From assembly GCF_004403065.1 (NCBI RefSeq), contig NZ_SOHA01000041.1, positions 62,001-126,000 on the forward strand: 64,000 nucleotides of DNA, written 5' to 3'. Source of the DNA: Cryobacterium cryoconiti. Lineage in GTDB: Bacteria; Actinomycetota; Actinomycetes; Actinomycetales; Microbacteriaceae. The notes under the pieces were generated by a model that saw only the letters and a program-made list of their open reading frames with translations, searched no databases and had not been told where the DNA came from. A program made the position numbers and the translations under genes. Below, one piece after another: positions 14,455-58,744 of the stretch; positions within the stretch are counted from its first letter, which is position 1, and the number at the start of each line of letters is the position of its first letter.

Positions 14455-15777
14455 CTAGAGGAGGGCCAGGGCGCGCGCCGGGTTGGCGAGGAGACCGGCG
14501 ACGTCGGTCAGGAAGCGGGCGGCCTGCTCCCCGTCCACGAGCCGGTGGTCGAAGGCGACGCTCAGGGTGACCACCTGCCGCAGCGCGATCTCGCCCCGGT
14601 ACACCCACGGTCGCGGGGCGATCGCCCCGAGGGCCAGGATGACCGCCTCCCCCGGAGGCAGGATCGGCGTGCCCGCATCAATGCCGAACGAACCGATGTT
14701 GGTGATCGAGATCGTGCCGCCGCGCAGGGCCGCGGGGCGGGTCGCGCCTGCCCGGGCGGCGCTGGTCAGCTCGGCGAGCGCCGCGGCAAGGTCGACCAGG
14801 CTGAGCCGGTCGGCATCCGGGATGCTGGGCACGATGAGTCCCCGCGGGGTGGCTGCGGCGATGCCGAGGTTCACGTAGTGGAACTGCACGATCTCACCGG
14901 CTGCCTCGTCCCAGTGCGTGTTCACCTCGGGCGTGCGGGCGACCGCGAGGCAGAGCGCCTTCGCGACGACGGCCAGGATGCCGATGCGCGCCTCCGCGAA
15001 GACCCGGTCGCCGCGGAGCGCCTCGATCAGCTCGATCGCCGGGGTCACGTCCACGGTCAGGAATTCCGTGGCGTGCGGCGCGGTGAACGCGCTCTGCACC
15101 ATGGCCGCCGCGGTGTGCTTGCGCACGCTCCGGATCGGGCTGCGGGTTTCCCGCACGCCGGCCACGGGTACCGCGGGCCCGGCCAACGCCTCCACGTCCT
15201 GCCGGGTGATGAGTCCGGTCGGACCGGTCCCGGTCACCTCGGCGAGGTCCACGCCCAGGGTGCGGGCCAGGGCACGCACCGGCGGCGTGGACCGCGGGCG
15301 CTCGGTCGCCACCGGCGGCTCCTCCCCCGCGATCGGCGGCGCAGGCACGGTGTCCGTGGCGACCTGACCTCCCGCATCCGTCGCCCCGATGCGAGCCCGG
15401 CGCTGCGGCCGCCCCCCGCGCTCGACGGCGGCGCCGTATCCCACCAGCACCGCCTCCCGTTCGGTCTCGCGAGAGCGCACTTTCTGCCCACTCGAAGCCG
15501 CTGAGGGGGCAGAAAGTGCGCTCTCGCGACCAGACGGGGAGTCGACCTCGAAGGAGACGATCGGGTCACCGACGCGCACGGTGGTGCCGGGCTGCTGGTG
15601 GAGCTCGGCGACCACCCCGGCGAACGGCGACGGCAGTTCCACCACGGCTTTGGCCGTCTCGACCTCGGCGATGAGCTGGTTGAGGGTCACGGTGTCGCCC
15701 GGCGCGACGCGCCAGGCCACGATCTCCGATTCGGTCAGTCCCTCGCCGAGGTCGGGCAGTGTGAAGACCTTGATCAT
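14455..15777 (-). CDS. bkdC: Branched-chain 2-oxoacid dehydrogenase E2 (dihydrolipoamide acyltransferase)
   Basis: E2 core of the branched-chain 2-oxoacid dehydrogenase complex, 440 residues. The lipoyl domain carries the lipoylated Lys43 (VETAKAVVE). The peripheral subunit-binding domain (~TPPVRALARTLGVDL) follows a long linker, and the catalytic domain ends with DHRLVDGEQ. Residues ~84-104 of the first linker are encoded by a 63-bp perfect palindrome (family A repeat). The encoded ESALSAPSA...VRSRE is almost identical to a peptide in the unrelated Ada/AlkA protein further on. ATG overlaps the E1 beta stop (ATGA). The substrate class is inferred from the Lrp regulator and adjacent leucine genes; a pyruvate role is less likely. 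Confidence 0.9.
   Translation of the reverse strand: MIKVFTLPDLGEGLTESEIVAWRVAPGDTVTLNQLIAEVETAKAVVELPSPFAGVVAELHQQPGTTVRVGDPIVSFEVDSPSGRESALSAPSAASSGQKVRSRETEREAVLVGYGAAVERGGRPQRRARIGATDAGGQVATDTVPAPPIAGEEPPVATERPRSTPPVRALARTLGVDLAEVTGTGPTGLITRQDVEALAGPAVPVAGVRETRSPIRSVRKHTAAAMVQSAFTAPHATEFLTVDVTPAIELIEALRGDRVFAEARIGILAVVAKALCLAVARTPEVNTHWDEAAGEIVQFHYVNLGIAAATPRGLIVPSIPDADRLSLVDLAAALAELTSAARAGATRPAALRGGTISITNIGSFGIDAGTPILPPGEAVILALGAIAPRPWVYRGEIALRQVVTLSVAFDHRLVDGEQAARFLTDVAGLLANPARALALL
15467..15529 (-). repeat. Dispersed palindromic repeat, family A, copy 1 (inside bkdC)
   Basis: Arms 15467-15489 and 15507-15529 form a perfect 23-bp inverted repeat with a 17-nt loop. The arm centre reads GAGAGCGCACTTTCTGCCC. 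The orientation is assigned from the loop end CTGAGG shared with copy 2. The element is read in frame by the E2 gene and encodes its linker residues ~84-104. Related copies are at 40587-40647 and 57648-57706. Confidence 0.88.
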
Positions 15778-40514: not shown

Positions 40515-40586
40515 GGCTCCATCCTCCCCGATCCCTGCTGGGGGTCTACCCCGTGCGCTCTCCGCGCGCAGGGGCCGTTCACCGAA

Positions 40587-40647
40587 CGCGAAAGCGCACA
40601 ATCTGCCCCTTCCCGAACACTGAGGGGGCAGATTGTGCGCTTTCGCG
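40587..40647 (+). repeat. Dispersed palindromic repeat, family A, copy 2 (intergenic)
   Basis: Perfect 23-bp arms at 40587-40609 and 40625-40647 enclose a 15-nt loop. The arm centre AAGCGCACAATCTGCCCC differs from copy 1 at three stem positions, each compensated in the other arm. It begins 72 bp upstream of the VanZ start and ends 16 bp beyond the APC permease stop. Confidence 0.88.
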
Positions 40648-40662
40648 GGTCATGCAGGGGCT

Positions 40663-42198
40663 CTACTTGCTCAGCGCGGCCCGTTCCTCGGCGATGAGCT
40701 CCTCGCGGAGGGTGTCGTCGAAGACGCGCTTGGCTTCGATGCCGACCACGGAGTGGCGGCGGCCGTAGAGGAAGTACACCGCGATGCCGATCGCGAGCCA
40801 GACCGCGAAGCGCACCCAGGTCAGCGTCGTGAGGTTGAGCATGAGCCAGAAGCAGAGCACCGCCGACAGGATGGGCAGGTACGGCGAGAACGGAACTTTG
40901 AAGGCCCGGGGCAGGTCGGGGCGCTTCTTGCGGAGCACGACCACGGCGATGCTGACCAGCACGAAGGCGGACAGCGTGCCGATGTTGATCATTTCCTCGA
41001 GCACGCCCACGTCGGTGAACCCGGCGATCAGGGCCACGGCGGCACCGGAGATGATCTGCACCCGTGCGGGGGTGCCGCGCTTGGATGAGGTGACGCTCAG
41101 CCCACGCGGCAGCAGGCCGTCGCGGCTCATCGCGAAGAGCACGCGGGACAGGCCGAGGAGCAGCACCATGATCACGGTGGTGAGCCCCACCAGGATGCCG
41201 ACCGAGATCACCTGAGCAGCCCAGCCGGCGCCGACCGAGATGAACGCCGTGGCGAGCGAGGCGTTGGGGTCGTCGGCAAGAACCGTGTACGGCACCATTC
41301 CGGTGAGCACGAGGCTGACACCGAGGTAGAGCACCGTGACGATGGCCAGACCGGCGAAGATTCCGCGCGGCAGCGTCTTCTGCGGGTTCTTGACCTCTTC
41401 GGCGCTGGTGGCGACCACGTCGAACCCGATGAACGCGAAGAAGACCAGTGAGGCACCGGCGAGCAGGCCGAACAGTCCGTACTGGGCCGGCTGGGCGCCG
41501 GTCATGAACGAGAAGAGCGACTGCATCCAGACGTCGCCGTCGCCGCCCGTGGACGGCACGGCCTCGGGGATGAACGGCGTGTAGTTCTTCGGGTTGATGA
41601 AGAAGGCGCCGACCACGATCACGAACAGCACGATCGCGACCTTGAGGATGGTGAAGATGCTGGCGACCCGCGCGGAGAGCTTGGTGCCGAGCACCAGAAG
41701 GGTGGTGAAGATGGCGACGATCACGAAGGCGCCCCAGCTGACCTGCAGGCCGAAGACCGAGATCGTGGCCGGGACATCCCAGTTCCAGAGCTCGAACACC
41801 TCACTGAGGTAGATTCCCCAATACTTGGCGATCACGGCGGCGGCGGTGAGCATCTCGAGGATCAGGTCCCAGCCGATGATCCAGGCGAGCAGTTCACCGA
41901 GCGTCGCGTAGGTGAAGGTGTACGCCGAGCCGGCCACGGGCACCGCCGACGCGAACTCCGCGTAACACATGATGGCGAGGGCGCAGGTGATCGCGGCGAG
42001 CAGGAACGCCAGGGTGACGGATGGCCCGGCGTAGCTGCCGGCCGCCTTCGCACCGACCGAGAAGATACCGGCGCCCACGGCGACCGCCACCCCCATGATC
42101 ATGAGGTCCCAGGTGCCCAGCGTGCGCTTGAGGCTGTGGCCCTTCTCGAGGGAGTCAGCCAGGGAGGCTTCGATGCTCTTGGTGCGCCAGACGCTCAT
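40663..42198 (-). CDS. APC-family cationic amino acid permease
   Basis: A 511-residue 12-helix transporter of the CAT-type APC family: helix 1 motif GVAVAVGAGIFSVGAKAAG, FAFIGFDVVATSAEEVKNPQKTLPRGI and SRDGLLPRG are diagnostic. It probably imports basic or other amino acids by proton coupling; the substrate cannot be set from sequence. ATG 42198 starts the conserved N-terminus (MSVWRTKSIE), with a GGAA-rich leader. Confidence 0.9.
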   Translation of the reverse strand: MSVWRTKSIEASLADSLEKGHSLKRTLGTWDLMIMGVAVAVGAGIFSVGAKAAGSYAGPSVTLAFLLAAITCALAIMCYAEFASAVPVAGSAYTFTYATLGELLAWIIGWDLILEMLTAAAVIAKYWGIYLSEVFELWNWDVPATISVFGLQVSWGAFVIVAIFTTLLVLGTKLSARVASIFTILKVAIVLFVIVVGAFFINPKNYTPFIPEAVPSTGGDGDVWMQSLFSFMTGAQPAQYGLFGLLAGASLVFFAFIGFDVVATSAEEVKNPQKTLPRGIFAGLAIVTVLYLGVSLVLTGMVPYTVLADDPNASLATAFISVGAGWAAQVISVGILVGLTTVIMVLLLGLSRVLFAMSRDGLLPRGLSVTSSKRGTPARVQIISGAAVALIAGFTDVGVLEEMINIGTLSAFVLVSIAVVVLRKKRPDLPRAFKVPFSPYLPILSAVLCFWLMLNLTTLTWVRFAVWLAIGIAVYFLYGRRHSVVGIEAKRVFDDTLREELIAEERAALSK

Positions 42199-42328
42199 AA
42201 CTGGGTGTTTTCCGTTCCGTTGGGTACCGCTCAATATTAGGCCCCCGCCGGGGACCCCCCGCCGGTCAGGCGCTACGCAGCGGCCGCCCGCCGACCCGCG
42301 ACCGGCGCCCACCCCCTAGCATTGAGCG

Positions 42329-43410: not shown

Positions 43411-43460
43411 CACCGTGCCCCGGCCGCCCCGACCGTCGCCGCCCTGCCACTCATCTGTTC

Positions 43461-43525
43461 CCCGTGCGGACAACTGTTGCCGGCACGCGGGCAACAGTTG
43501 TCCGCACGGGCGACAGTTGCCGGTC
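43461..43525. repeat. Dispersed palindromic repeat, family B, copy 2
   Basis: A perfect 21-bp inverted repeat (43461-43481 with 43490-43510) has an 8-nt loop; the arm contains GCGGACAACTGTTGCC. The similarity to copy 1 (reverse complement) continues downstream through GACAGTTGCCGG. It sits between azlD and the YegP-like gene. Confidence 0.75.
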
Positions 43526-43603
43526 GCGGTGCCGGGAGCGGTAGGGTTTTTCCAACGGCTAGCTGCCGACCATGTTTTTCAATGTTGAAGAAATGAGTGT
43601 GCC

Positions 43604-52497: not shown

Positions 52498-52541
52498 AAA
52501 ACGCGCCCACCTTCCCGTCGGGAAGGTGGGCGCGTTTTTTT
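52498..52541 (+). terminator. Intrinsic terminator after the surface-protein gene
   Basis: Perfect 20-bp arms (52498-52517 and 52519-52538, GC core CGCGCCCACCTTCCCG) are followed by seven T. It starts 20 bp after the stop. This is the clearest rho-independent terminator in the window. Confidence 0.93.
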
Positions 52542-54130: not shown

Positions 54131-54283
54131 CCCCCTATCCAATCGGATTCGGCGCCCGCACGCACGTCGAGAATTCCCCCTTGCGCGAACGCCTGTACAA
54201 GGCGCACCATGTCAGTAGAACTCGCTGCACCGGGAGAGTTGTCGGCAGTGCCACACCACCGGGGCGGCGAGTCCTTTTGCCCT

Positions 54284-54339
54284 CACACCGGCCCGATCAC
54301 ACCGGCCCGATCACACCGGCCCGATCACACCGGCCCGAT
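54284..54339. repeat. Tandem repeat, four 14-bp units, across the PrsW stop codon
   Basis: Four identical copies of CACACCGGCCCGAT in a row. They cover the last codons and the stop (54311-54313) of the PrsW-like gene and continue past it. Because 14 is not a multiple of three, unit number changes would shift the C-terminal frame. Confidence 0.93.
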
Positions 54340-55531
54340 CCCGCTGGATCAGGCCCAGCAGCTCGGACTCGTCGGCCCGGTCGACGTTGACGAAGGTTCC
54401 GTTCAGCATCCGTTGCCGGGCGAAGGCGAGGCGGGTGGAATTCTGGATGAAATCACGCATCGCCTGTTTGCGGGCCGGTGGCTGCCGGGCTGCCCAGGCA
54501 CGGGCCTGCCGACGGCCGCCGCGGGTGGCCAGCATGCCCACCTCGGCGAGGCTGAACCAGCCTGCCGCCGCGTACTCCCGGAGCCGGAGCGAGGTGACGC
54601 GTTCCTCCTGGCGTCGGAGCACGATCACGACGGCGATCGCGGCCAGGAACAGGGGCACCTGCACGACCAGGTAGTAGACCACGAGCGACTCGCCGGCCAC
54701 GAGGTAGAAGGCGCCGTTCCATACGAAGTGCAGGAACATCGCCGAGACGAACCCCAGCACGATCGTTCCGACGGCCGCCGCCGGGCGCATCCGGGACGCC
54801 AGTCCGCAGGCGATCCCGATGCAGGCGGTGAACATGACGTGCGCGAACGGGGACAGCACACCGCGCACCAGGAACGTGAAGCCCAGGTTCGCGGCGCCGC
54901 CCTCGATCATCGCCACCCCGAAGTACTGGATGTTCTCGGAGAAGGCAAATCCGGCGGCGATTGTCGCGGCGTAGACGACTCCGTCGACGGGCCCGTCGAA
55001 ACGGTGACGGAACACCCAGAAGATCAGCAGCACCCCGGCGCCCTTGGCTGCCTCCTCGACGAGGGGCGCCTGAACGACGGCCGCGGCGAAACCGCCATCC
55101 GTTTCGCTGATCCCGGTGCCGGCCCGGGCCAGTTGCACGCCCAGGTCGAAAAGCAGGGCGGTCACGACGGACACCCCGGCACCCCAGAGGAAGGCGAACC
55201 AGAGGGCCGGTCGCGGTTCCGGTTCCCAGCGGTCGATCCAACGCACCGCGAGCAGGATGCCCAGCAGCGGGATGAGCGCCAGAATCAGGCCGACCAGCAG
55301 CGTGCCGGCACCCAGGAAGGTGGCCAGGTACACGAAGACCAGGAACAGCGCGGCCGCCGCGATGACGATGCCGACGATCGCCAGCGCGACGAGGCCGGGA
55401 CGGGTGCGGCGCACCGGGGCGGTCCAGACCGGACGCACCGGCTGGGCGGCCGGCTGCACGGCCGCCGGCGCGGGGCCGGCCGGATGCTCGTGCGGGGCGG
55501 CGGAGTGCGCCGCAGGAGGCTCGTGGGTCAT
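54311..55531 (-). CDS. PrsW-family intramembrane metalloprotease-like protein
   Basis: A 406-residue membrane protein. After a Pro/Ala-rich N-terminal ~45 residues come about eight helices with PrsW motifs: LVEEAAKG, AFSENIQYF, the His in LSPFAHVMFTACIG and the later His in FLHFVWNGAF. In Bacillus, PrsW cleaves an anti-sigma factor; the target here is unknown and no sigma/anti-sigma pair is adjacent. ATG 55531 has TAGTCT 7 nt upstream. The extreme C-terminus (RAGVIGPV) is encoded by a tandem repeat. Confidence 0.87.
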   Translation of the reverse strand: MTHEPPAAHSAAPHEHPAGPAPAAVQPAAQPVRPVWTAPVRRTRPGLVALAIVGIVIAAAALFLVFVYLATFLGAGTLLVGLILALIPLLGILLAVRWIDRWEPEPRPALWFAFLWGAGVSVVTALLFDLGVQLARAGTGISETDGGFAAAVVQAPLVEEAAKGAGVLLIFWVFRHRFDGPVDGVVYAATIAAGFAFSENIQYFGVAMIEGGAANLGFTFLVRGVLSPFAHVMFTACIGIACGLASRMRPAAAVGTIVLGFVSAMFLHFVWNGAFYLVAGESLVVYYLVVQVPLFLAAIAVVIVLRRQEERVTSLRLREYAAAGWFSLAEVGMLATRGGRRQARAWAARQPPARKQAMRDFIQNSTRLAFARQRMLNGTFVNVDRADESELLGLIQRDRAGVIGPV

Positions 55532-55553: not shown

Positions 55554-56945
55554 TCAGACCTCGAACATCGTGCCGGGGTTGAGGATCCCGAGCGGGTCGA
55601 ATACGGCCTTGATCTGGCGTTGCAGTGCAAAGCTCTGGTCGCCGAGCTCCTCGGCCAGCCAGCGGCGCTTCAGCTGCCCGACCCCGTGCTCGCCCGTGAG
55701 GGTGCCACCCAGTTCGAGGGCGGCACGGAAGAGCTCACCGGCCGCGGCCCACACCGCCTCGGGCACGACCGGCTCCGCGTTGCCCCGGTGCGGGTCGACG
55801 GGAATCACGAAGTTGGGGTGCAGGTTACCGTCGCCGGCATGAGCCACGGTGGGGATCGGGATGCCCGTGCGGGCGCTGATCTCGGCGATCCGCCCGAACA
55901 TGTCGGCGAGCCGGGATCTGGGCACGCAGACATCCTCGATCAGAACCTCGCCGTGGGCGGCGAGCGCCGGGTGCGCTGCCCGGCGCACCGCCAACAGACG
56001 ATCGGCGGATGCGGCATCACTGGACACGCGCACCTCCCCGCCCGCACCGCGCAGCACGGCCACGGCCTGCTGCGCCTCGGCCTGGCTCGCCGGGCCATCC
56101 GTCTGCACCAGCAGGAACGCACCTCCCGTCGGGACTCCGTCCGTGAGCTCGGGGCCGAGGTAGGCCACGATCAGGGCCAGGGCCACCGGATCGATCAGTT
56201 CCATCACGGCCGGGCGAAGCCGGGCCGCCGTGACGAGAGCGGATGCCGCGGCCGCCTGCGCCACGTCGGGGAACACGGCGCCGATCGTGACGGTCTCGCC
56301 CGCGGGCACGGCCCGTGCCCGCACGGTGGCCTCGACGATCACGCCGAGAGTGCCCTCCGAGCCGGTCAGCAGGGCGGTCAGGTCGTAGCCCGTGACGCCC
56401 TTGACGGTGGCTCGCCCGGTCTTCAGCAGGCTGCCGTCGGCGAGCACCACCGTGAGCGCCAGCACCGCCTCCCGGGTCACGCCGTATTTGGCGCAGAGCA
56501 ACCCGCCCGCGTTCGTGGCGATGTTGCCGCCCACCGTGGAGATCGCCCGGCTCGCCGGGTCGGGCGCGAACCACAGTCCGTGGGCGGCGAGGGCGGCGTT
56601 GAGGTCGCCGTTCAGCACGCCCGGTTCGACCACGGCCAACTCGTCCTCCGGCCGGATCAGGACGATCCGGTTCATTCGCGCGAGGCTCAGCACGATGCTT
56701 CCGTTCGTGCCGCACGCTCCCCCGGCCAAACCCGTACCCGCACCGCGGGTGATCACCGGGATGCGGTCTTCGGCTGCGATGCGCAGCGTGGCCTGCACGT
56801 GCCGGGCGGATGCCGCGTGCACGATCGCGAGCGGCATCCCCGGGGCCACCCATCCCGACTTGTCGGTGCGCGTGGCGGCGAGCTCAGCCGGATCGACGCT
56901 GACGTGGGTGCCGAGCTCGGCCTGTAGGCGCTCCAGTGCGGTCAT
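55554..56945 (-). CDS. FAD-linked oxidase, GlcD/D-lactate dehydrogenase type
   Basis: A 463-residue VAO-family flavoprotein. FAD-binding PCMH domain: [50 protein letters not shown]-terminal cap: [16 protein letters not shown] and [12 protein letters not shown]. It oxidises a 2-hydroxyacid such as glycolate or D-lactate; the exact substrate is not determined. No GlcE/GlcF genes are adjacent. TACTGT lies 6 nt before ATG 56945, with no SD. Confidence 0.9.
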
Positions 56946-57043
56946 GGGCCCACAGTACCGGCAGCGACACCGGCACCGCGCCGAGGGTCGGCCGTGGCCG
57001 ATTCCCGCTGGTGCGCGTCCGTCGACGGTGTCAGGCTGGACCG

Positions 57044-58744
57044 GTGACCAGCACCCGCCCCGCCGTGCCCGACCCGGCCTTCGCCGAACGGTACCGTGCC
57101 ATGTCCTCCCGGGACTCCCGCTTCGACGGGCAGTTCATCACGGGCGTGCACTCCACCGGGATCTACTGCCGGCCCAGCTGCCCGGCCGCCACGCCGAAGC
57201 CGTCGAATGTGTCGTTCTACCTGACCAGCGCGGCCGCGCACGAGGCCGGCCTGCGGGCTTGCAAACGCTGCCTGCCCGACGCCGTCCCCGGGTCGCCGGA
57301 ATGGGACATCCGTGACGACCTGGCGGCCCGGGCCATGCGGCTGATCGGAGACGGCCTGGTCGAACGGGAGGGCGTACCCGGGCTCGCCCGTCGCCTCGGC
57401 TACAGCGAGCGCCACCTCACCCGGGTGCTCGTCTCCGAACTCGGCGCCGGGCCGCTCGCACTCGCCCGGGCGCACCGCGCGCAGACCGCCCGGATGCTGT
57501 TGGTCGGCACGGATGTCCCGATCACCGACGTGGCCTTCGCCGCCGGGTTCGGCAGCGTGCGCCAGTTCAACGACACCATCGCCGCCGTCTACGAGCGCAC
57601 CCCGACCGAGTTGCGCCGCGCCTATTCCCCCGCGAAGCCCCCCGGCTGCGAGAGCGCACTATCTGCCCCCTCAGCGTCCCCGAAGGGGCAGATAGTGCGC
57701 TCTCGCGAGGTGGTGGACGGCGGGGGCGGGACGGGGGGCGGGACGGGGATCAGTTTGCAGCTGGTGGCCCGGGCTCCGTTCGACGGGGTGGGGGTGCTGC
57801 GCTTTTTGGCCGCACGGGCGCTCGCCGGGGTGGAGCAGGCGACGGATGCCCGCTACGCGCGCACGCTGCGCCTGCCGGCCGGCCCCGCGACGGTGGAGCT
57901 GACCCTGACGGGGCCGCCGTCCGCACCGGGCGTCACCTGCCGTGCCCGTCTGACCAGCCTCGCCGACCTGGCCCCGCTCGTCAGCCGGGTGCGCCGGCTC
58001 CTGGACCTGGACGCGGATTCGCAGGCGATCGACCGGGCGCTGTCCGGGGACCCGCACCTCGCGGCCGGGGTCGCGGCCACGCCCGGGATGCGCGTGCCCG
58101 GCAGCCTCGACCCGGAGGAAACGCTGTTTCGCGCACTGATCGGCCAGCAGGTGTCCGTGGCCGCCGCCCGCACGGTGCTGACCCGGCTGGCCGAGGCGCT
58201 CGGCGAGCCGCTCCCCGGCGCGGATTCGGCCGACAGCGCGGCCGACAGCGCAGCCGACCGTGACGCGCACACCGCCGGCAGCGCCCAGGCCGGGCACTCC
58301 GCACCTCTCACCCGGTTGTTCCCGACCGCCGAGCGGATCGCGGCCGAGGGACGCACCGTGCTGCGCGGCCCGGCCAGCCGGGTCGACGCGATCATCCGGG
58401 TGGCGGAGGCGCTCCGCACGGGGGACCTGGTGCTCTCGTTCGGTCAGAGCCGGGAAGACCTCGAGAGCCGGCTGATGGCTCTGGCCGGGATCGGGCCGTG
58501 GACGGCCGGCTACGTGGCCCTGCGCGTGCTGGGGACCCCGGACATCCTGCTGACCAGCGACCTGGCCCTGCGGCAGGGGGCCGGGCGGCTCGGCCTGCCC
58601 GCGGATGCCCGCCACCTCGCCCGTCACGGGGCCGCCTGGGCACCGTGGCGCAGCTATGCCGGCATGCACCTGTGGCGCGCGGCGGGCGCCACGACGGGCG
58701 CCACGACGAGCGCCGCGAACCGGGACCTCTCCCCGGCCAGCTAG
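57044..58744 (+). CDS. Ada zinc domain-AraC HTH-AlkA glycosylase fusion (alkylation repair)
   Basis: A 566-residue fusion. Residues ~1-85: Ada N-terminal zinc domain with Cys42, Cys46, Cys73 and Cys76, where Cys42 is the expected methylphosphotriester acceptor. ~90-195: AraC HTH ([23 protein letters not shown]). ~235-340: AlkA N-terminal domain; ~345-560: HhH-GPD glycosylase with [27 protein letters not shown] and Asp in LLTSDLALR. No O6-methyltransferase domain is present. Residues ~202-221 are encoded by a family A palindrome. A second low-complexity insert ([10 protein letters not shown]) splits the glycosylase domain. GTG 57044. Confidence 0.9.
57648..57706 (+). repeat. Dispersed palindromic repeat, family A, copy 3 (inside Ada-AlkA gene)
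   Basis: Perfect 22-bp arms (57648-57669 with 57685-57706) and a 15-nt loop; arm centre GAGAGCGCACTATCTGCCCC. In the orientation set by the loop, it lies opposite to copies 1 and 2 on the chromosome. Relative to its host gene it is in the same orientation and frame as copy 1. Confidence 0.88.

Follow-up and report, generated by a model that had tools for sequence, protein, structure and literature searches.

The window, a stretch of 64,000 nucleotides from Cryobacterium cryoconiti that was analysed as a whole, contains three copies of a 63-nt palindrome, two of them in frame inside protein-coding genes and one between genes. The copies and the genes around them are located as follows:

14455-15777, minus strand: gene for a 2-oxoacid dehydrogenase E2 with Biotin_lipoyl, E3_binding and 2-oxoacid_dh domains, host of copy 1
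15467-15529, minus strand: copy 1, a 63-nt palindrome that lies in frame in the E2 gene and is read as 22 residues between the lipoyl and E3-binding domains
40586-40648, minus strand: copy 2, an intergenic 63-nt palindrome, 14 nt past the stop codon of an amino-acid permease gene and upstream of a VanZ-like gene
40663-42312, minus strand: the amino-acid permease gene
56936-58744, plus strand: Ada-AlkA fusion gene with an Ada metal-binding domain, an HTH and an AlkA_N domain, host of copy 3
57646-57708, plus strand: copy 3, a 63-nt palindrome in frame inside the Ada-AlkA gene, read as 21 residues between the AraC-type HTH and AlkA_N domains

All three palindromes described in the first-pass annotation are present, each of them 63 nt long when set in register. 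The coordinates given there for copy 1 stand, whereas those for copies 2 and 3 were 1 and 2 nt short per end, respectively. With position i paired with position 64-i, an uninterrupted run of 22-23 pairs makes up the outer stem, exactly as had been claimed, and is followed by one mismatch or wobble, 2-3 further pairs, and a 9-nt loop. The differences between the stems (TTT, AAT or TAT, and GAG or GAA) are each mirrored in the opposite arm, again as described. The CTGAG at the end of the loop is found in the three window copies, in copy 3 on the other strand, but it is not a feature of the family. The statement that one copy, in the E2 gene, is coding was correct with respect to E2 but not with respect to the number, as copy 3 is also in frame. 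Read as protein, the element frame of copies 1 and 3 is identical (ESALSAPSA...GQ.VRSRE).

Five perfect inverted repeats with arms of at least 20 nt occur in the window, three of which are the 63-nt copies, and 100 dinucleotide shuffles of the window produced none. The RNA folding z-scores of copies 1, 2, and 3 are -9.0, -9.8, and -11.7, and no gathering-level match to Rfam was obtained anywhere in the window. Some further repeats were observed. A second palindrome family, GGACAACTGT...GGCAACAGTTGTCC, is represented at 1863-1948 and 43452-43527, and a pattern search found it at eight places in the genome, including these two. At 52498-52538, there is a perfect palindrome outside the 63-nt family, with 20-bp arms (AAAACGCGCCCACCTTCCCG) and a 1-nt spacer, and at 54283-54352, the 14-nt unit TCACACCGGCCCGA forms a tandem array.

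Spread of the family and its place at gene ends

A first covariance model (R1), built from five copies of the C. cryoconiti genome (3.43 Mb), identified at least 15 full copies in that genome, each 63 nt in length, together with one weak 39-nt match. Within the genus Cryobacterium, R1 matched in 53 of 57 genomes. The first-pass annotation had proposed a family from three copies, had suggested a covariance search of the whole genome, and had named a lack of further copies as the outcome that would speak against its proposal; the search supports it on this point. A second, broader model (R2) gave 37 matches in the C. cryoconiti genome, so that a few extra weak copies are possible. No published description of this Cryobacterium palindrome family was found in a literature search of open-licence papers.

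Named genomes were scanned with a pattern in which the outer 12-mers were fixed and the gap was set to 35-39. Of the 73 stretches obtained, 63 are from Cryobacterium, and Mycobacterium, Leucobacter, Arthrobacter, Microbacterium, and Bifidobacterium account for the other 10. A search of the class with R2 matched in 22 of 394 genomes, and the same model matched in 16 of 40 genomes of one genus, taken as Mycobacterium from the element sequence. In other families, the R2 matches are more variable in length and sequence. The Mycobacterium-like genomes have palindromes of 63-65 nt, mostly CGCGA-ended and directly behind stop codons. A viral origin was dropped, as viral contigs gave no match to the fixed-12-mer pattern with the gap of 35-39, the one pattern tried there.

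Constancy in length and ends was assessed with 124 model-chosen Cryobacterium copies from 31 genomes. The set comprises all 15 R1 copies of C. cryoconiti and, elsewhere, mostly the best-scoring matches to this model built from C. cryoconiti copies: part of the copies from ten genomes (G048, G009, G007, G003, G018, G010, G015, G029, G030, and G039) and one copy each from 20 further genomes, with locus L031 (G026) excluded. A length of exactly 63 nt was found for 113 of the 124, with a model that tolerates insertions and deletions. The ends CGCGA...TCGCG are present on both sides in 109 copies and on one or both sides in 123. An early count of 99 out of 115 at 63 nt came from a scan that saw only 61-65 nt, so that its constancy was partly imposed. 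Since the filters of the early scans had this effect on both ends and length, our conclusions rest on the 124 model-chosen copies.

The gene settings of these copies, derived with a crude codon-usage gene caller, were convergent in 53 cases, co-directional in 50, divergent in 13, at an edge in 5, and within a gene in 3. Thus, 103 of the 116 intergenic copies with two flanking genes are at convergent or co-directional gene ends. Comparison gaps of at least 75 nt, taken from the window and 63 Cryobacterium loci, were distributed as 27 convergent, 95 co-directional, and 73 divergent, and the enrichment of convergent over divergent settings has an odds ratio of 11 (Fisher p ~1e-11, with orthologous copies being non-independent). 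Of the 50 co-directional copies, 44 are closer to the upstream stop (median 24 nt) than to the next start (median 71 nt). At the Mycobacterium-like loci (n=28, of which 27 are readable, as L321 is mis-cut and shows no element), we counted 19 convergent, 8 co-directional, and no divergent settings, mostly at most 20 nt from the stop codon. These counts show that the usual home of the palindrome is the gene end and not the gene interior. The coding copy in E2, which the first-pass annotation had taken as its lead example, is therefore an exception in a family whose members mostly lie just past stop codons, chiefly at convergent ends.

Judged from position only, a gene-end transcript role is most likely, either in the protection of mRNA 3' ends or in termination that would be free of a U-tract. 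As bacterial stem-loops in general are described as favouring gene 3' ends (PMC1590033), the position by itself is weak evidence for a role as RNA. The 13 copies between divergent genes, the missing U-tract, and the unclear G-U preference (see below) also count against such a role. A canonical intrinsic terminator, defined by a hairpin and a U-tract, was rejected: TTT occurs within 15 nt behind the hairpin in just 2 of 50 co-directional sense-strand tails, and there is no terminator-like site around copy 2.

It is also possible, but in our estimation unlikely, that the palindromes are TRIT-like RNA terminators at gene ends, subject to ordinary selection, whose compensated stems and dialects (see below) would result from RNA pairing and co-evolution with a factor. 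Such an explanation accommodates the strong bias to 3' ends, above all those of convergent genes, and the persistence at the same gene ends across species (90 same-site pairs). It does not readily account for the missing U-tract, for the copies between divergent genes (13/124) and in genes (3/124), or for the presence of two stem types in one genome, which independent selection at each site would not be expected to produce. In addition, the stem of the 63-nt palindromes is longer and more perfect than termination should require. A preference for G-U over A-C mismatches on the sense strand is also not clear, with 20 versus 12 in the unfiltered co-directional copies (p = 0.22). An earlier count (G-U 17 versus A-C 16 for co-directional copies, and 2 versus 16 for convergent copies in the given strand) was set aside because its set was filtered for Watson-Crick pairing. 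As a side aspect, A-C exceeded G-U (24 versus 11) in the given strand of the convergent copies of the unfiltered 124-copy set, for no obvious reason.

In the RNIE work of Gardner et al. from 2011, TRIT is said to be a hairpin of conserved sequence found at the 3' ends of genes in Mycobacterium tuberculosis. The likeness, which is one of description only, lies in the Mycobacterium-like palindromes of 63-65 nt right behind stop codons, whose gene-end position at the 27 readable loci is shared with TRIT and Myt-1. The use of a "TRIT model" is mentioned in PMC3526491. Coding copies, dialects, and the occurrence in Cryobacterium are features of the palindromes described here that do not appear in the publications consulted. 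Myt-1 is a stem-loop family of M. tuberculosis with a length of 72 nt, 75 listed copies, and the entry "+++" in a structure table (PMC2267715); as described there, it resembles our family in similar size, dispersed stem-loops, and a host from a related order. On the basis of these descriptions, TRIT and Myt-1 are likely the nearest relatives of the palindrome family.

Paired changes in the stems and copies inside genes

The first-pass annotation had concluded from the matched stem changes of the three window copies that the hairpin is maintained. A set of 30 diverse copies had changes in both partners of 21 out of 26 pairs, with a covariation score of 0.483 compared to 0.149 for shuffled copies and none of 500 shuffles reaching it; this set had been pre-filtered for Watson-Crick pairing and CGCGA ends, so that the five invariant outer pairs are imposed. 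Strong covariation is found across the family. Without filtering, a comparison of six genomes with each genome's commonest pair gave 89 two-sided Watson-Crick departures, 75 one-sided departures, and 9 others. Same-site copies with similar stems (29 pairs, which are non-independent) showed 29 changes with pairing kept in both copies and 77 with pairing broken in one. By rough arithmetic, about one pairing-kept change would be expected if the arms mutated independently. One same-site pair, of G009 and G030, has three two-sided changes, none broken, and a nearly identical loop. However, the excess of broken over kept pairs counts against strict compensation.

Inside the constant ends, the stem varies strongly in sequence, although most of it remains paired. 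This observation bears on the idea that the palindromes serve as duplex-DNA targets of a protein for chromosome organisation or topology and are tolerated at promoter-free gene ends, in the way that gyrase binds the BIMEs of E. coli. The CGCGA at both ends of 109 of the 124 copies, its near-constant spacing, and the symmetry of the whole element would suit such a protein. The interior varies widely between and within genomes, however, and pairing would be needless in a segment whose sequence the protein ignores, which makes this explanation quite improbable.

Since the two-sided changes are far above chance, we infer template switching between the arms: while the hairpin is being replicated, a switch of template would carry a change from one arm of a copy into its partner arm. 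Template switching is described as a well-studied process in microbes, and it has been suggested to keep stems intact via matched multi-base changes (PMC8794818). Such matched changes are shared with our palindromes; the hairpins treated in that source are in RNA genes, whereas here they form a dispersed bacterial family with dialects.

Copies inside genes are rare. Only three belong to the 124-copy set, namely the two in the C. cryoconiti host genes and the E2 copy of G007. In a comparison of E2 orthologues, as had been suggested in the first-pass annotation, 30 loci were covered, one of which (L149) has no linker, and the linker DNA of nine was inspected. The insert is confined within the genus to 3 of the 29 readable linkers (C. 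cryoconiti, G007, and G030), and its outer stem is perfect in C. cryoconiti and decayed in G007 and G030. The outcome named against the proposal in that annotation, an E2 linker sequence shared by descent across distant families, was not encountered in this comparison within the genus. The C. cryoconiti and G007 copies are separated by two changes that affect both sides of a pair and by five positions at which pairing is broken. The Ada-AlkA comparison covered 29 of 30 loci (L280 was excluded), and the full element was present in C. cryoconiti alone among the 29 linkers. Among the six DNAs viewed by eye, remnants of the left arm were seen in G030 and G029 and of the right arm in G007; remnants elsewhere may have escaped this inspection. 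As the linkers differ in length between species, clean empty sites cannot be read off.

The orthologous coding copies thus decay in sister species, which indicates that pairing is not strictly kept there. The proposal that the hairpin is maintained is supported by the covariation of the family as a whole, but not strictly for these copies. The E2 and Ada-AlkA copies would represent rare insertions into interdomain linkers, which could survive because the length of 63 nt equals 21 codons and one of the element's frames is open. They are two cases of a near-perfect long palindrome within a bacterial protein-coding gene.

Rickettsia palindromic elements insert in frame in genes, and the in-frame copies in the unrelated E2 and Ada-AlkA genes resemble them in this respect. 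The wider group of CGTC-tagged repeats, to which the Rickettsia elements belong, also has in-gene copies, with no dedicated transposase known according to PMC3733652, where these repeats are listed in five phyla, Actinobacteria not being in that list. In contrast to them, the palindromes described here have no CGTC tag, and coding copies are rare (3/124). Perfect palindromes in protein-coding sequences have also been described for the mitochondria of Nematomorpha (PMC6649704); ours differ in being bacterial and dispersed, with dialects across sites.

Stem dialects and the origin of the copies

We obtained 90 pairs of copies at the same site, that is, at orthologous gene ends matched by both flanks, and their stems often differ. 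Stem similarity was compared for 55 pairs (23 genome pairs) whose two genomes each had at least three other copies. It averaged 0.81 within a genome, against 0.65 for the same site in different genomes and 0.61 for different sites in different genomes (0.80, 0.64, and 0.63 with an alternative averaging). The difference between within-genome and same-site similarity was significant (Wilcoxon p 0.0003), and in 45 of the 55 pairs, the closest same-genome copy surpassed the same-site copy in similarity. The within-genome mean was above the same-site value in no more than 33 of the 55 pairs and 16 of the 23 genome pairs. When flanks were at least 80% identical, the difference gave p = 0.10 (38 pairs), and when they were at least 85% identical, the values were 0.80 and 0.72 (p = 0.43, 21 pairs). 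Same-site copies were slightly more similar than other between-genome copies, with p = 0.06, 0.02, and 0.08 at three cut-offs. Together, these figures point to concerted evolution throughout the genus, with a partial positional memory among close relatives.

One orthologous site has three stem types:

C. cryoconiti, G007, and G039: related ACAATATGCCC-like stems
G009 and G030: GGGTGAATCGTCG stem
G048 and G040: ACTTTTCGCCC stem

By eye, the right-hand boundary of the element at this site is apparently the same base in C. cryoconiti, G007, G009, and G030, which covers two of the three types (ACAATATGCCC-like and GGGTGAATCGTCG). In G009, two distinct stem types occur side by side, the second of which, GCGGGTGAATCGTCG, is homogeneous. 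This coexistence favours copy-by-copy replacement over gradual drift. As further observations, several of the newer-type copies of G009 (loci L196-L208) are near contig ends, and at L033 (967, 1501), L063 (2954, 3478), and L183, two 63-nt palindromes each were seen at a distance of about 0.5-0.8 kb; at L033 and L063, both members of the pair occupy corresponding sites in two species.

Lineage dialects at inherited positions could arise if individual gene-end hairpins of Actinomycetes were rewritten where they stand, each from another copy in its own genome and without any transposase. Hairpins with no more than about 10 bp in common at each end would then be copied onto one another by gene conversion or template switching, and this might sometimes reach even copies within protein-coding genes. 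Gene conversion of REP-type palindromes is an old question, asked in the title of a 1988 review cited in PMC3116915. We put this rewriting forward tentatively, as overwriting in place is weakened by the 33/55 and 16/23 counts and by a shared boundary that extends to two types only. At some sites, the flanks are too diverged to prove the same base, and loss followed by re-insertion at a favoured spot may apply there.

Dialects could also be the traces of successive bursts of a non-autonomous mobile element of the MITE or REPIN kind, served by an unrecognised transposase with a preference for gene ends. The homogeneous GCGGGTGAATCGTCG type beside an older type in G009 looks like such a burst, the 13 G009 copies are dispersed with unrelated flanks, and the occurrence in the E2 and AlkA linkers is lineage-restricted. 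However, a search for the Y1 (RAYT-type) transposase family PF01797, the first-pass annotation having suggested that a RAYT-like gene be looked for, gave no match at E <= 0.001 in the 57 genus genomes, while the control search was positive in 5 of 14. No target duplication flanking the G009 copies was seen by eye. Moreover, 28 of the 29 exact arm matches in the C. cryoconiti genome fall in the 15 palindromes, so that a longer element carrying these arms was not encountered in it. Taken together, we consider a mobile element rather doubtful. A larger repeat around the element was rejected on account of the dissimilar flanks of the 13 G009 copies, and a DNA uptake sequence was rejected because solitary arms are almost absent from the C. 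cryoconiti genome.

REPs and REPINs are dispersed hairpins moved by RAYTs, mostly extragenic, with compensatory changes and several types per genome, as outlined in PMC3116915 and PMC8049555, and our palindromes resemble them in all of these respects except for the RAYT. They are dispersed, extragenic, and near 3' ends, 116 of the 124 lying between two genes. They differ in having no RAYT match in the 57 genomes, no GTAG tag, which is defined as an end feature of REPINs in PMC3733652, a length of about 63 nt, and a strong convergent bias. With PF01797 and the tag both missing, a REPIN/RAYT system was rejected, and the palindromes are not REPINs as defined. Of the earlier classification as a non-autonomous REP/MITE-like element, the REP-like dispersion remains, whereas the RAYT that defines REPINs was found in none of the 57 genomes. 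REP-like is the best reading of the family, and it is perhaps TRIT-like.

The explanation that we favour, with about even confidence, is an actinobacterial family of gene-end hairpins that is homogenised between sites and whose arms are matched by template switching, the in-gene copies being rare linker insertions. Copies would be overwritten or re-seeded by copies of the same genome, which would give rise to genome-specific stem dialects, and the corresponding pattern is seen genus-wide. As the family combines the lack of a RAYT match with near-constant length, shared orthologous positions, and dialects, in-place copying should be measurable by the comparison of strains. Beyond Cryobacterium, the palindrome family suggests a gene-end signal that is common to several Actinomycete families.
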